Assembly (NCBI GenBank): GCA_011033025.1
Contig: WFMF01000069.1
Location: 62,001 to 126,000 of the forward strand
Length of the DNA stretch: 64,000 bases
DNA from: Beroe forskalii
Taxonomy: Eukaryota > Ctenophora > Nuda > Beroida > Beroidae
Reading direction: 5' to 3'
The notes beneath the pieces are model-generated. The model searched no databases and was not told the origin of the DNA. It saw only the letters and a list, made by a program, of their open reading frames with translations. Positions 15,768-64,000 of this stretch are shown piece by piece (the stretch's first letter is position 1; the number at the start of each line of letters is the position of its first letter). The position numbers were made by a program, and so were the translations under genes.

Positions 15768-16476
15768 TTAGAGCACTAGGTATAGTACAATCAGTAGGAA
15801 AGTGAAGGCCGAGGTACGGTTCGGAGCTGCTGAGCTTTTACACTCCTCCGCGCTAACTGCTGCCGTCTTGTCCGTTATCTGGTCGTCAGGACACGGCGTG
15901 CATGTGGCTGCGTTGGTCGTATTACTGTACGTATTCAACGGGCACACCGCACAGGTCCCAGCTTCCCCCAACGTGTATCCGAGCGAGCAAATGCTCGTCG
16001 GAGCCGGTTTTTTCGTCGTCGGAGCCGGTTTTTTCGTCGTCGGAGCCGGTTTTTTCGTCGTCGGACCCGGTTTTTTCGTCGTCGCACCCGGTTTTTCCGT
16101 CGTCGCACCCTTCTTTCCGGTCTTGTTCTCGGCTACGGTTTCTTTAGGTTGAGTTGATGAAGGAGTAGTTGCAGTTGTTGGCGGCAGCTTTTTGTCGGCA
16201 AGAATATAGTTAGCAACATTTGTTTTGTAACTTCCTCTACTTACATATTCACCAAGTTCACCTTGAGTTGTGCAAAAGAAGGCAATCGATGTGCTACGAT
16301 TGGGAGATCCCTTGATGTCCGTTTCCTTTTTGAGGCGGACTTTATAGCACATAGTATCACCTTCGCATGCCCTGGAAGCTTGCTCATCTTCCACACATTC
16401 GGCTGGGTACGTATCTTTCCCAATATCAAAGCATATGGGGCAAGCATCATTACTGGCTGTCTCCCTCGCCTCGTCA
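15768..16476 (-). CDS. GPI-anchored Ly6/uPAR-like protein with mucin linker (3' exon)
   Basis: About 235 residues in one exon; the 5' end is a likely acceptor near 16476, so the signal peptide is probably on an upstream exon I could not place. Order: a Cys-rich region starting ACPICFDIGKDTYPAEC with later Cys in GDTMCYKV and IAFFCTT, a spacing like the N-terminal part of Ly6/uPAR (LU) domains; a Thr/Pro/Lys linker with at least five TTKKP(A/G) repeats, likely O-glycosylated; a second Cys-rich module (GYTLGEAGTCAVCPLNTYS, then CTPCPDDQ) resembling ephrin-receptor-like/GCC2-GCC3 repeats; and a C-terminal hydrophobic stretch (AFTFLLIVLYLVL) after small residues, typical of a GPI signal. Inference: a cell-surface, GPI-anchored glycoprotein. 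The Ly6 call rests on Cys spacing only. Confidence 0.65.
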
Positions 16477-17539
16477 CTTGCACGAAAAGAAATTGATAAG
16501 TCTTTGCTATGGCCTGAGTGGGATAAAGTAAAAGAGTAAAGTATAATGGTGGTTTGGAGTAAAAAGGCTGAATTTTACTCATTTTAATTTATAGCTGCAG
16601 TGAGGACACATAACAGCTTTTTTTTCGCATTGCTTCCTCAATCCTTAATAAATCTATTTGCTATTTCGCTATTGGTATTTATGGTAATTATATATGGGGG
16701 CAATTATAATAAAATTCTTCAGGTAGCTGATAATGTATGGTTAGTAACCATTGGTTACCTTGAGACGAGAGCACCGCCAAGAACATGAACACTGAGATAA
16801 TCATCGTCTCCTCACGGTTCCAGATGATAAAATGATGACTAATTCTTCTGGGTAAGTTTCTTAGTTTCCTTGCGAAACGTTCCTCAAAGCCGTCTCCCCT
16901 ATAAAGTACAATTTGTAATCAAGGATTCAACGTAGACGAAAATAGGCTAACTGCAATGTTACTGCAATTCAACTTTCGAAGTATAGAAAGGTTGAAAACA
17001 AAAGATTATCAGTTGTGGCAGTGATACGGTTGCTTACATTGTCACTAAATTATAAACTGAATGATTTGTGGACAGGAAAAGGTATAATACTTTTAATTCG
17101 CACCATTGTTCTTCCACTCTTTTTTAATTGGACGAACAAAATTTTCCTCGCAGCTAATATAGACCCAATTATTCTTTTGTAACCTCCCTTCTTTTTATCT
17201 CATTTAAATCCTCCGATGAAACGATCTGTCAGAAAACAATGTGATGTTTAGCAAAAGATGTGAGATAGTGCCAGCGGCAAGAGCGTATGGAGAGATTATT
17301 TAAACAAGAATTGCGCCTGCCGGCGTATTTCTTGTGCCGTTGTTCCCGTATGCAGATTAAAACAATTCAATCTAGGACCGTTTTTGATGTCTTATTTACT
17401 GACATGATGTTGACGACAAAGCAAAAGCATAAACATGACGTTCAAATCATCAAATGAAATAAATTTCCGTGATAAAATGCTCATTGATGATTGAATCAAC
17501 TTTAAATATTCCTCGTTATGCGGGTGCTACTTTCCCGTT

Positions 17540-26400: not shown

Positions 26401-29400
26401 TTTCTGCTTATTAAAGGAATTGTGTAGAATGACTATAAACATCTTATTTTCTTAGTTGTCTTTTCTGTATGTAGACTATTTGTTTCCGTGATCCCCCTCC
26501 TGAAACAGGCAGATTTCGAGACTGCATCTCATTTTTGGGGAGACCTGCTTTGGAACGTAGTCAATAACGCTGAGTTCACTGAGCACTTCAAGAGTTCTCG
26601 GTTGCAGCTGATAAAGGAAAACCTGCCCAGTAAGCTTCATATAATTGTTGTTAAATCATGAAAATCATGTTTTATTCTCAATCAATGAGTTCATCAATGA
26701 ATCCAAGATTCGTATTTTTACATCTACTTGGTCATATCGGATCTCAATTTTCCATAACAATCAGTAATCATCAAAAGTCGTTACTAATCCATAAAATTCA
26801 TGGACTTTAAAAAGCTCATAATCAAAGTTTTTAATCAAAGTTTCTAATCAAAGAATATAAAATGAATTAATTTCTCTCGATCGCTTCCAATAACAGCTAT
26901 CTTCCACCAGGCGGGGGACTGCACGGATATCTCAACTCCCTGGAAGTTCCAATGCCCGGGGTCCTGCGAGTACATCCCTGCCAAACTGACTTGTGCCACC
27001 TCCTGCATTGACCCTGCTGCTTCTGCTTGTCTTGTGGGTGAGTTATGGCAATTATTAGGGTTTTAGAACATTTCATCTTCCTAATCCTAATCCTAATTTG
27101 CTCGGTGTTGAAATAATACGAGATTAGGTGTCGTGGGAATTCATACACTCTCTGACTTCAGATTCGGCTTCACACAACGAAGCCCTGAACTTATTTTGTA
27201 TGTTATTAGGGCTGTAGAACATTCCATCTTCCTAATCCTAGTCCCAGACCTTTGCTTGGAGTTGAATAATAGCGGAGATTAAATGTCGTGAGATTAAATG
27301 CAGTGATAAGAAATGTCGTGTGATGAAAATATTTCCGTTCCCACTTCTTAGCGCTTGATAATTTTATAGTACTCACATGTGGTTTTAGATATTTTTGGGT
27401 GATCTACTGGCCTTTTAGCTCATAATCCTTCATTCCTTTCCAATGAATTTCCGTTTAATTCAAACTACTATGATTGATTATTATTCATACGCACTCTGAC
27501 TTCAGATTCGGCTTCACATAACGAAGCCCTGAACTTGGATAAGATAACCTCTCCCATCACGATAGCGGGGGATAAGTTGCTGGGACTTACAGGTAAGGAT
27601 GAAAGGTGTATGAAGTTACAAAACCCTCTGACGTTTTAACCGGTCTCATAGACACTTGTTTGATCGGGTCCATATTGGACATTGGTTTAGACCCTCGCGC
27701 TCAGGCTGCCGGTCTAAACTGGATACATCCCTCGAGCTGCACTCTCGGAAAGTATCCCAAAAACCCGATGGGCGCGTATCTATATATTTCATATTTTGCA
27801 AGCTGTTTTCCTTCATCAGACGTAACGATGTGCATATCACTGAAGTACATCTATATGGGCCATCTACTGGACTACAGCCAAGAATCCCTCCTGGTCTTCA
27901 TGCAGTCCCGGGAGTCGCTGATGGTGGTCCTCCACAGGCACCACTACGTCTTCTTCCCCGTCATCATCTTCTACAGGGCCATGCCAGTCCACATGATATG
28001 TGTTAGGTAATGTGGTTATCATATCTCATATCAGTTCACATGATATGTGTTTGCACCAAATGTCAAACGCAAGGAAATGTTTTAATTCTCTAAAAATTGT
28101 GTTTCTCAACATAAGCCCACATAAGGTAATACAGTTATTGCATCGAATTCATAAACTAAACATGTATAAAAGGAATTGGTTAAAAAAAAACTTTCTGGTT
28201 TCATTCACATTCTGAAGATGTGTTGCAATACGGCTTTTAACTGAAGCTTTCCACCCTGACTCGTTCCCAGGATAGATAGCGGTTTCCTGTCAGTTTTTAC
28301 CCCTGACTCTTCCCCAGGATAGATAGCGGTTTCGTGTCAGTGTTTGTGGACGGGGATCCCCTCACTATTAGCACCTATCAGAGCAGCACGCCTCTCAACC
28401 AGCAACTAGGAGGAGGGGATTTGGTGCTGGATTGGGACAAGGTGGAGAGGAAACACGGCAGCGGCATGGTGCTGGGACTCAGTGTGTGGGGCCGAGCCTT
28501 TTCTGATTCAGAGGTGCTCCGAGTCGCTTAGAGCTTTCATTTTTAAACGATTTTTAAATCCTGTTTGATGCATTCCCCGATGGATACCCAATCTTTTATT
28601 TTTTGATGAATCTATTATATTCTGCAATGTGATGTCATTTGATCAAAGTCCGGCAGATAATTTCATCATTCCAACAACATTATTATAATGGATATTTGAC
28701 CGAATCTTTATCTAAATCCCACCTTTATTCCCCAGATGTCCCTGTACACGACACTTCCCAACTGTGTGGACAGCAGTGACCTGGTGTTGTCATGGTCCGA
28801 GGTGCTGGACCACGCCAGACGGACTGATCCTGACAGCATTGTCGCCTCCAACCAGTGCAGTAAGTGCCACTTCCCGAAAGGAGAAACACTACTCAGGTGC
28901 TTTGATTCAATGAAATAAATTTGAAAATTGTCTGAATGCAAGACCTTTTGTCTGACTTACTTTTTCTTCGACATGTAAGTAAAATATATCGATAGTTTTT
29001 GAATTGACACTTCGCATATAAATTACCCTTCATTCGTGTTGTAGGGCACGGTATTTAGGGCATTTAGCTCGAAAAAACTATAGGCTCATTCCCGATCGCA
29101 TTCCTCAGAACTGGACACCCCACTGGAGTTCCACGCTGGTATCCACGACATGGACGGGTTCAGGCCCCCTCAATCCCAGGGCAAAATGATAGCGGTGTTG
29201 GAGGCCCCCTTCGGTGAAGTCACTAGGGAACATGATGACGTCACTAGGCAACACGTCACTAGGGGATACGATGACGTCACTAGGGGATACGATGACGTCA
29301 CTAGGGGATACGATGAAGTCACTCAGCGTGCGTCCCTGTCTACGGAACCCGGGGGAAAGATATGCTTATCGGTAAAGCGAAGTGGGGCCTCTTTTTATTC

Positions 29401-32400
29401 TTTCTTAATTGTCAATAGTTTTTCTCTTATTGTGCCTGAATAGGTAGACTGACTTTAGGTCTGACTTCGATGAACATACTTTTATATTGCTTTTTTGAGA
29501 CATTCTTATTATTATTATTTCAGTTGAAGACGGGCAAGTTTGACCCTGATATGAAGGTTCAAGCTGTTGCTATTGTGGAAAACCCTACGGGACTTTCAAA
29601 CCGAAACTTCAATGTGTTCAACGAAACGGTAAAAGTAATTTGAATTGAACTTTACACTCCATCAAGTAAAAGTTATGCAACTAAAAATTTATGCGCTCAA
29701 TAACTATTGAACGCATCAACTTATAGTTGTACATAACTATTACTGGTGATTTTCGAACAAAGATATTATCCTAGAGAGTTGACAACCTGTGTTACTACTG
29801 CAAAGAAGCTATCATTCAAATTCCAGAGCTGCGCCTCGGAAATGAATCTAAAATCTGCATCACGGATTTCAGAGATAAGTCCGATGTTACGTTGGGGTGA
29901 GTTGAAATTTAGTTTCATAACTCTTTCCGTGCTGCGCCCTCCCACGGGTCGCGAATTGCTTGCACGTCTCCTTAAATGGGTGGGTGCTATTTTGTTGTAG
30001 AAGTTTGAATGATTATCTCATGATTAACAAATCTCTAAGCGTATAGATATTACCAGTCAACTATCAGCCCTGAGTCATGAAATCGTTTGCTCAGATTCCC
30101 CGCCACTAACTTCACCGGGCTGATCATATCCCGACTCATGTTGGTTGAAGTGCAGCGAGAGTGGGCATGTAAAGATGACATACTCGATCACCCTCTCTTT
30201 GGAATATTCAAATGGCCCCCAACTAACACTTCCTCAAACGGTAGGAGAGCGGTGATGTCGTGAAATATAATGATGTCGTGAAATTTGGCCTTTCAAGATA
30301 ATCTTCGGACAAATATTCATGTAGAATTGTTATGAATTAGGAAAATATAGCCCGGCATCGTCAAAAAGTTACCTATAGCATCTGCCAATCTGAGGACCCA
30401 ATGCTTGCCTCGCAATATCCTCAGTTGTTTTGCCTTTCTTCAGGCATCTGCCCGTACGGTAGTAAGATTACAGACGAACATAACATTGCGTACGCATTCC
30501 GATCCTGCGTGGACGGAGTATGGTCTGATGAGGTGGATGCTAGGAACTGCAGGTTCCGGCCCGGTCACAGCAACCTCAGCATGTTGCTCGATATTACCAA
30601 ACAGGTTTGTTCGGGTTCCGGCCCGGTCACAGCAACCTCACCATGTTGCTCGATATTACCAAACAGGTTTGTTCAGGTTCCGGCCCGGTCACAGCAACCT
30701 CAGCATGTTGCTCGATATTACCAAACAGGTTTGTTCAGGTTCCGGTCACAGCAACCTCAGCATGTTGCTCGATATTTCCAAACAGGTTTGTTCAGGTTCC
30801 GGCCCGGTCACAGCAACCTCAGCATGTTGCTCTATATTACCAAACAGGTTTGTTCAGGTTCCGGCCCGGTCACAGCAACCTCAGCATGTTGCTCGATATT
30901 ACCAAACAGGTTTGTTCATGTTCCGGTCACAGCAACCTCAGCATGTTGCTCGATATTACCAAACAGGTTCGTTCAGGTTCCGGCCCGGTCACAGCAACCT
31001 CAGCATGTTGCTCGATATAACCAAACAGGTTTGTTCAGGTTCCGGCCTGGTCACAGCAACCTCAGTATGTTGCTCGATATTACCAAACAGGTTTGTTCAG
31101 GTTCCGGCCCCGTCACAGCAACCTCAGCATGTTGCTCGATATTACCAAACAGGTTTGTTCAGGTTCCGGCCCGGTCACAGCTACCTCAGCATGTTGCTCG
31201 ATATTACCAAACAGGTTTGTGCAGGTTCCGGCCCGGTCACAGCAACCTCAGCATGTTGCTCGATATTACCAAACAGGTTTGTTCAGGTTCCGGTCACAGC
31301 AACCTCAGCATGTTGCTCGATATTACCAAACAGGTTTGTTCAGGTTCCGGCCCGGTCACAGCAAACTCAGCATGTTGCTCGATATTACCAAACAGGTTTG
31401 TTTAGGTTCCGGCCCGGTCACAGCAACCTCAGCATGTTGCTCGATATTACCAAACAGGTTTGTTCAGGTTCCGGCCCCGTCACAGCAACCTCAGCATGTT
31501 GCTCGATATTACCAAACAGGTTTGTTCAAGCATCCGACGCGCTGCTCACAGAGAAGCTTTAAAGCTCAGTTGAAATTAGGTGAAAATTTTAAAACGTTGT
31601 GACGTTGACATTTTCACTAAGCCGAAATCTCTCCGTAACAGTCCGCTCAGTCTGCAATTATCTCAGGGGCAGAACATATTGGACGGGTTTGAGCTGCGAG
31701 ATACCATGGTCAATGCGCTCGAGACTGATCCAATAGATGCCGAACTACTTCGTAGAGCTATGAAGCACATGAAACTTATTTTCCAAAGGGTTAGTCACAC
31801 AGAAACGTACAAAAAACACAATAATGGACCTTACTTAAACGCAACGGAGGAAATTCCAGATGGAATATAAAATTTATGCATATTTTTACCATACTACAGT
31901 ACAGGCAAATGGTTGGTCGATGATCAAGTAACCAACTCATGATATTCTGCAGGAAGCCGAATCAGGACCTCAGTGCTGGTTTTCCGACATCCTGGGAGCT
32001 GCTCACAGATATGCTGACAACTACGTCACCATTTACAAAGAGTAAGTTATTTGTTTGTACACTAAACGTCAGAATGAGGTCAAGAGATTGAAGCTTTAAA
32101 CGATATAGCTGATACGAGAGAATTGTTAATCAGAAGTTTTCGAAAATTTTGTGATTATTGTCGTCAGCTGAGAGTGGAGTTTGGAGAGGTGTGTGAGGAT
32201 GTTTGAACTCATTAGGTGGCTGGGGCCATCCATAAAGACATCTGCAAAATTTCAGTTCAGTTGTTCTTGGCAAAGCACAGAACTGCACTAAACTTTTATT
32301 ATTTTAAATCCTTGTGTTAGACCAGCTCCAAGCTTCAGTGGAGAGAGGACTCATTTCCGGTCCCTTTCATCGACACTCGTAAAATTCTTGGAAATGTAGT

Positions 32401-62614: not shown

Positions 62615-64000
62615 CAGAGACTAGACACCAGTCTCATGTTCCACTGCTGTTGATACCAGTCTGGTGTTACGTTGACACCAGTCGTCCAGTTTGGTGTTAC
62701 GTTGGCACCAGCCTGGTGTTACGTTGGCACCAGTCTGGTGTTACATTGGTACCAGCCTGGTGTTACATTGGCACCAGTCTGGTGTTACATTGGTACCAGC
62801 CTGGTGTTACGTTGGCACCAGTGTGATGTTAGGTTGGCACCAGTCTGGTCACTGTTGTTACGTTAATACGTTGGCACCAGTATGGTGTTACGCTGGCACC
62901 AGCCTGGTGTTACGTTGGCACCATTATGGTGTTACGTTGGCACCAGCCTGGTGTTACGTTGGCACCAGTCTGGTGTTACGTTGACACCAGTCTAGTGTTT
63001 CGTTGACACCAGTCTGGTGTTAGGTTGACACCAGTCTGGTGTTAAGTTGACACCAGTCTGGTGTTACGTTGGCACTAGTCCGGTATTGCGTTGACACCAG
63101 TCTGGTGTTACGTTGACACCAGTCTGGTGTTACGTTGGCACCAGTCTGGTGTTACGTTGGCACCAGTCTGGTGTTACGTTGGCACCAGTCTGGTCACTGG
63201 TGTTACGTTGGCACCAGTCTGGTGTTACGCTGGCACCAGTCTGGTGTTACGTTGGCACCAGTCTGGTCACTGGTGTTACGCTGGCACCAGTCTGGTGTTA
63301 CGTTGGCACCAGTCTGGTGTTACGCTGGCACCAGTCTGGTGTTACGTTGGCACCAGTCTGGTGTTACGTTGGCACCAGTCTGGTGTTACGTTGGCACCAG
63401 TCTGGTGTTACGTTGGCACCAGTCTGATGTTACGTTGACACCAGTCTGGTGTTACGTTGGCACCAGTCTGGTGTTACGTTGACACCAGTCTGGTATTACG
63501 TTGGCACCAGTCTGGTGACACCAGTCTGGTGTTACGTTGGCACCAGTCTGGTGTTACGTTGGCACCAGTTTGGTCACTGGTGTTACGTTGACACCAGTCT
63601 GGTGTTACGTTGGCACCAGTCTGGTGTTACGTTGGCACCAGTCTGGTGTTACGTTGGCACCAGTCTGGTGTTACGTTGGCACCAGTCTGGTGTTACGTTG
63701 GCACCAGTCTGGTGTTACGTTGGCACCAGTCTGGGTTACGCGTTATTTGACACCAGTCTGGTGCCGCGTTGACACCAGTCTGGTGTTACGTTGGCACCAG
63801 TCTGGTGTTACGTTGGCTTGTGTTACACCAGTCTGGTGTTATGTTGACACCAGTCTGATGTTACGTTGATACCAGTCTGGTGTTACGTTGACACCAGTCT
63901 GGTGTTATGTTGACACCAGTCTGATGTTACGTTGACACCAGTCTGGTGTTACGTTGACACCAGTCTGGTGTTACGTTGACACCAGTCTGGTGTTACGTTG
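62615..64000. repeat. Satellite of ~22-bp palindromic unit, block 2 (continues past the end)
   Basis: More than 55 units of about 22 bp with the core ACCAGTCTGGTGTTACGTTG and a variable base giving GACACCAG or GCACCAG. Each unit carries a 7-bp palindrome around a T. Occasional inserts (CTGGTCACTG, or a doubled half unit) mark local shifts. The unit length is 22, not a multiple of three, yet units lack stops in all frames; the long open frames are by-products. Confidence 0.95.

Follow-up and report, generated by a model that had tools for sequence, protein, structure and literature searches.

Tandem copies of an exon/intron boundary, each with its own splice donor, raise the question of which donor the transcript uses and whether the number of copies matters for the protein. 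We addressed this question for an array of 16 tandem units at positions 30553-31529 (plus strand) of a 64,000-nucleotide stretch of genomic DNA of the ctenophore Beroe forskalii, referred to here as the window. With a probability of roughly 0.75 we consider the array to be a "mirage", that is a boundary minisatellite, in which donor 1 is used, units 2-16 are intronic and the protein stays unchanged at any copy number.

Structure of the repeat array

A preliminary description of this DNA had reported an exon/intron boundary with its donor amplified 16-fold, and this was borne out by 16 near-identical units in tandem, starting at 30553, 30615 and so on to 31468, each opening with GTTCCGG. The unit had been described as the last 52 bases of an exon followed by the donor CAG/GTTTGT; this arrangement was indeed seen in unit 1, where the exon is open and ends in phase 0. 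Given the predicted exon, a unit is made up of 52 (or 47) exonic and 10 intronic bases. The proposed unit length of 62 bp held for 12 of the 15 spacings and failed for three, which measure 57 bp, 5 bp of a CCGGCCCGG stretch near the unit start having been deleted in each of units 4, 7 and 13.

Compared to the consensus, the 16 units carry 16 substitutions in total, mostly private to a single unit, with one common to units 10 and 16. The donor GT is intact in all units and the donor sequence CAGGTTTGT is present in 15 of them, unit 7 having CAGGTTCGT instead. The 9-base donor takes one of the 16 substitutions, a share in line with chance (P=0.50), and selection on the donors was rejected on this ground. 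An acceptor-like sequence had also been placed directly before each following unit. Its AG is kept at 13 of the 15 junctions, being absent after units 1 and 6, and the exact sequence TTGTTCAG is found at just 10 of the 15. The two AG positions take 3 of the 16 substitutions, above chance (P=0.014), one of the three lying at the native edge of unit 16. No preferential conservation of the acceptor-like AG was observed.

These junctions bear on a reading in which the units are tiny cassette exons or recursive sites, with the acceptor-like TTGTTCAG spliced to a donor two or more units further upstream. The 10-bp gap between neighbouring units is too short for splicing, a 52-bp cassette would shift the frame, and by eye the sequence is without a long polypyrimidine tract. 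The loss of AG after two units and the excess of substitutions at this position argue in the same direction. Consistent with cassette use are the AG/GT found at 13 of 15 junctions, an acceptor-like score of 0.58, which falls inside the low end of the acceptors in our gene model, and the use of such duplications in published models of intron gain (PMC3087553 / PMC3902484; PMC4974935). Taken together we regard cassette or recursive use as very improbable.

Host gene and copy status

The exon that contributes the boundary lies at 30444-30604 (plus strand). It has an open frame and a strong acceptor ttgcctttcttcag and ends at donor 1 (CAG/gtttgttc), so that unit 1 takes its exonic part from the final 52 bases of this exon (30553-30604). 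The next exon was placed at 31667-31789 (plus strand, phase 0); it reads GQNILDGFELRDTMVNALETD..., with acceptor tgcaattatctcag and donor gttagtca, and alternative starts are 31673 in the same phase and, in one gene-finder run, 31642. The gene model is crude: its two gene-finder runs differ on the array and on the next acceptor, and pieces of the array were taken as exons.

By eye, the exons resemble a HormR-GAIN-GPS-7TM receptor, the exon ending at donor 1 being HormR-like. The claim of a "GPCR exon", with the array between HormR and GAIN, found no support from Pfam, which gave no match to HRM, GAIN, GPS or 7tm/7tm_2 among the exon pieces of the host gene. A search of the genome with the HRM profile returned no match anywhere, not even for the controls, and so does not bear on this claim. 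PDB searches with exon pieces gave a single lead, the GPS-TM1-like piece having adhesion GPCR F1 (ADGRF1) as its best match at a non-significant E=0.3. Since there was no Pfam match, and ADGRF1 was reached only at this E-value, the label of adhesion GPCR is unproven for what may be a receptor gene. The gene carries another minisatellite (window 29215-29323), made of 21-bp units (7 codons, DDVTRGY) in a predicted exon and possibly a coding length polymorphism.

When the unit was searched against the assembly (216 Mb, 1,134 contigs), all 16 matches fell inside the array at 30553-31529, and a dispersed or multi-locus repeat was therefore rejected. The exon pair is without a close paralogue; 14 of its 15 assembly matches are at its own locus and one lies elsewhere at E=0.54. 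The 3' flank of the array is single-copy except for a short dispersed element. This element, about 110 bp long at window positions ~32080-32192, has copies that are 83-93% alike and at least 41 further assembly matches, a lower bound because 40 of 465 candidates were scored.

Reading frames and donor joins

The unit had been called stop-free in all frames. This is correct for the consensus unit in its three forward frames and incorrect for the real array, in which two of the three frames hold a stop: TAG in the gene's own frame in unit 14 (31403-31405, plus strand) and TAA in the second frame in unit 8 (31018-31020, plus strand). Only one forward frame runs through the whole array. Base-shuffled units were stop-free in all three forward frames in 3.9% of 20,000 trials, and among 16 boundary segments of 52+10 bp chosen from the gene model none was. 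We rejected the stop-free consensus unit as a sign of selection, as the observation was made after the fact, the real array has stops, and a similar array in a BRG1-like gene, described below, exists without such openness.

A shift of frame with copy number was likewise expected from the 62-bp unit. It occurs at the 62-bp spacings and is absent at the three of 57 bp, and because 57 is divisible by three the frame is not simply set by the copy number. Donors 1, 5, 9, 12 and 13 (5/16) give in-frame, stop-free joins to the next exon and the other 11 lead to a premature stop; donor 16 is in frame with the next exon, but its product would run into the stop in unit 14.

The frames were scored with a small model of codon usage trained on 4,652 codons. 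In this weak model the gene frame gave -4.5 over 266 codons for units 2-13, +7.5 over 54 codons for the exon at 30444-30604 and +4.7 over 41 for the next exon (31667-31789). The model separates poorly, the two exons having 0.14 and 0.11 per codon and random stop-free stretches a 90th percentile of 0.144. A coding repeat was rejected from the stops in two of three frames together with the negative score in the gene frame, the latter coming from a weak model. A tuning of splicing or protein length by copy number, as had been suggested, is possible but unsupported, with 5 of 16 donors joinable and a negative codon score for the array.

Use of several donors would vary the length of a linker between the two exons and truncate some of the transcripts. 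The copies are near-identical and mid-range for the gene model (score 2.3), and the five donors named above join in frame without a stop. Splicing can be altered by the human internal tandem repeats at exon/intron boundaries in segmental duplications, where for 66% of the intron modifications a repeat-retaining transcript is reported as well (PMC2812944). Yet 11 of the 16 donors end in a premature stop, the codon score of the array in the gene frame is negative (in a weak model), and in the BRG1-like sister array the later donors would not be productive. We consider the use of several donors unlikely. In a more elaborate form of it, the array would serve a cell-surface receptor as a length-polymorphic splice switch, with copy number and unit length (62 or 57 bp) setting the isoform mix. 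Donors 1, 5, 9, 12 and 13 would then give full-length receptors in which linkers of 0, 81, 162, 224 or 243 residues separate two parts of the ectodomain, and truncated, possibly secreted, ectodomains would come from the remaining donors; we regard this as very unlikely.

A boundary array in a BRG1-like gene

A BRG1/SMARCA4-like gene was found to carry a mostly 33-bp boundary minisatellite at its QLQ exon (G000:C165:360131-361672, minus strand; L047-L050). Thirty-six residues of the exon matched Pfam QLQ at E=5e-9 and SMARCA4/BRG1 in the PDB at E=6e-7. Here the unit consists of the last 20 bases of the exon and 13 bases of the intron, and the array holds 45 CAGGTGAGT donors over about 1.4 kb with a spacing of 33 bp in 29 of 44 cases. 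Translation in the gene frame gives ...VLMTPGSGE, and TAG TGA follows just after donor 1. Donor 1 itself is in phase with the next exon, which is proline-rich and reads GPGARMPGPPVSYPPPP.

Since the gene frame runs into TAG TGA beyond donor 1, any later donor would put a stop into the transcript. BRG1 is essential in the animals studied. If this gene is functional, splicing has to take donor 1 out of 45 identical ones. Because the later donors all add an in-frame stop, the tolerance of such arrays does not come from an open unit. Carried over to the array at 30553-31529, the same rule would point to donor 1, an analogy that falls short of proof.

Intron reading and proposed origin of the array

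As all 16 donors are near-identical, the sequence by itself does not tell which of them is chosen. Under intron definition donor 16 could be preferred over donor 1, giving an intron of 147 bp. From the BRG1-like array and the published mirages we infer the use of donor 1, which would leave an intron of 1,062 bp (30605-31666, plus strand) holding units 2-16. The transcript most probably joins donor 1, the copy attached to the exon body, to the acceptor at 31666; this join meets the next exon at phase 0. Units 2-16 would act as intron, and the protein would be the same whatever their number.

The array probably arose from the duplication of a segment that starts within the exon (after TGCA, at GGTTCC) and extends 10 bases beyond the exon end (GTTTGTTCA), with CA as a 2-base match at the duplication junction. 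Tandem duplication would have been followed by expansion to 16 copies. The distance from donor 16 to the acceptor, 147 bp (31520-31666, plus strand), would then correspond to the size of the intron before amplification. The array likely has no role other than that of an enlarged intron; we infer both the duplication event and the neutrality of the array.

Minisatellites and further boundary arrays in the genome

The genome is rich in minisatellites. We sampled 200 kb at 20 hand-placed spots on the larger contigs and found 25 arrays with a period of at least 15 and at least 4 copies, with one or more arrays at 14 of the 20 spots. The 64-kb window itself contains 8 arrays of that class. In one motif test a donor-like motif was present in the unit of 2 of these 33 arrays, namely the array at 30553-31529 and one in L030, and boundary arrays are thus a minority of the minisatellites. 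No boundary array was established among the 25 arrays of the sampled 200 kb, the one in L030 being the single one with a donor-like motif in its unit. In another ctenophore, Hormiphora, Tandem Repeats Finder is reported to mark 13% of the genome (PMC8527503).

Other repeats of the window include a 21-bp coding repeat (KKPAPTT-like) at 15995-16105, which lies in a minus-strand ORF (15768-16574) and adjoins an ephrin-receptor-like domain. At 62686-64000 a large 22-bp array (CCAGTCTGGTGTTACGTTGGCA) runs past the window end, and a 44-bp array in L032 looks similar to it.

In the whole genome, three CAGGTRAGT motifs at 40-70 bp spacing gave 532 matches compared to 78 for the reversed pattern, counts that include overlapping copies from a few arrays; single motifs gave 4,109 and 2,504 backwards. 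The corresponding search with CAGGTAAGT gave 135 matches in threes vs 2 backwards, overlapping copies being counted here as well, and 1,734 single motifs vs 1,365 backwards, array copies included. At least 10 arrays, two pairs of which share one contig each, were counted among 100 of the 135 CAGGTAAGT matches listed, compared to 2 backwards (Fisher P=0.08). The enrichment of donor motifs in arrays is suggestive only.

Among the matches listed for CAGGTRAGT (100 of 532) we recognised six arrays, on contigs C2, C77, C110, C122 (two arrays) and C165. From reading their flanks a boundary is present in five of the six, in a set picked for donor motifs; for C77 the flank stretches examined fell inside the array. 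On C2, C110 and C165 the array begins at an exon-like open stretch, and what is repeated is the 3' end of this stretch together with its donor, the unit being 24 bp on C2 (G000:C2:850034-850956; edges L052, L053) and 22 bp on C110 (G000:C110:242551-243911; edges L056, L057). On C122 a 43-bp array lies on the acceptor side, its unit combining the 3' end of an intron with the opening bases of the exon that follows (G000:C122:285854-287608; edges among L045, L046, L058 and L059), and the second array, a partly decayed copy of the first, lies about 27 kb away (G000:C122:313103-313535).

Support for these arrays is uneven, being homology for C165 and splice signals plus an open frame for C110 and C122, with reading phase in addition for C122. 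The codon score of the C2 exon was high per codon (18.2 over 65) and that of its next exon was at the 95th percentile (8.8 over 46). Scores were unremarkable for the C110 exon (4.7 over 47) and, on C122, for the upstream exon (3.4 over 46); they were near zero for the C165 exon (1.7 over 36) and, on C122, for the downstream exon (-0.4 over 37). The C122 exons matched no significant Pfam family. These arrays suggest that boundary minisatellites recur in this genome at five further places, two of which are an array and its decayed copy.

The occurrence of further arrays of like kind also speaks against reading the array at 30553-31529 as an artefact, produced by misassembly or collapse of a repeat that is in truth shorter or longer, as do the mostly private substitutions of the units and the 5-bp deletions in three of them. 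Near-identical units assemble poorly, and the copy number especially may be wrong; an artefact that accounts for the array itself appears very improbable. If boundary arrays are recurrent, the genome would be a natural laboratory for how the spliceosome picks one donor among dozens of identical ones (45 in the BRG1-like gene) and for how such arrays seed new introns. The wider set, above all the BRG1-like array, is a more interesting lead than the locus studied here, for which the practical point is modest: units 2-16 should be annotated as intron until cDNA says otherwise.

Comparison with known boundary repeats

The literature searched contained two parallels, the mirages of amphioxus and the boundary repeats in human gene duplicates. 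For boundary minisatellites in ctenophores no report was found in the literature searched, which consisted mostly of non-subscription papers and was covered in part. Mirages are minisatellites spanning exon/intron boundaries in amphioxus Adh3, the globins BflGb6 and BflGb9, troponin C and PGBD5. They are unstable in length and many contain AG/GT signals, whose cryptic use is mentioned as possible; regular splicing is reported as undisturbed (PMC3087553, PMC3902484). The array at 30553-31529 has the anatomy by which a mirage is defined, with an exon end and an intron start in each unit, minisatellite size and high identity. In amphioxus, too, tandem units cross a boundary, which may be that of the donor or that of the acceptor; in Adh3 and the globins they measure 10-160 bp. 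In contrast to BflGb6, with 3 and 6 copies, the present array has 16 copies and lies in a different gene. Transcripts were examined in amphioxus.

The human repeats likewise sit at boundaries and can be spliced out or retained, with a mean of 30-bp units in four copies over all variable repeats of that study (PMC2812944). They occur in recent gene duplicates, unlike the present locus, which is single-copy and has 16 units. Duplications across boundaries can also create introns; in intron gain by AGGT duplication (the Rogers model), a boundary duplication similarly supplies extra splice signals (PMC4974935). In the present case, by contrast, an existing intron would have been enlarged.

The host also differs from amphioxus in its mitochondrial COX1, which by eye is unlike that of a chordate. 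No tRNA was detected by ARAGORN (bacterial code) in 2,844 bases, a fifth of the mitochondrial contig (G000:C1134). In ctenophores the mitochondrial genome is described as spanning 10 to 11 kb and being free of tRNA genes (PMC7194472), and the contig, although longer than this, points to a ctenophore. It has 13,339 bp in all; the same 2,844 bases have a G+C content of 20% and encode a very divergent COX1 in which TGA was read as tryptophan.
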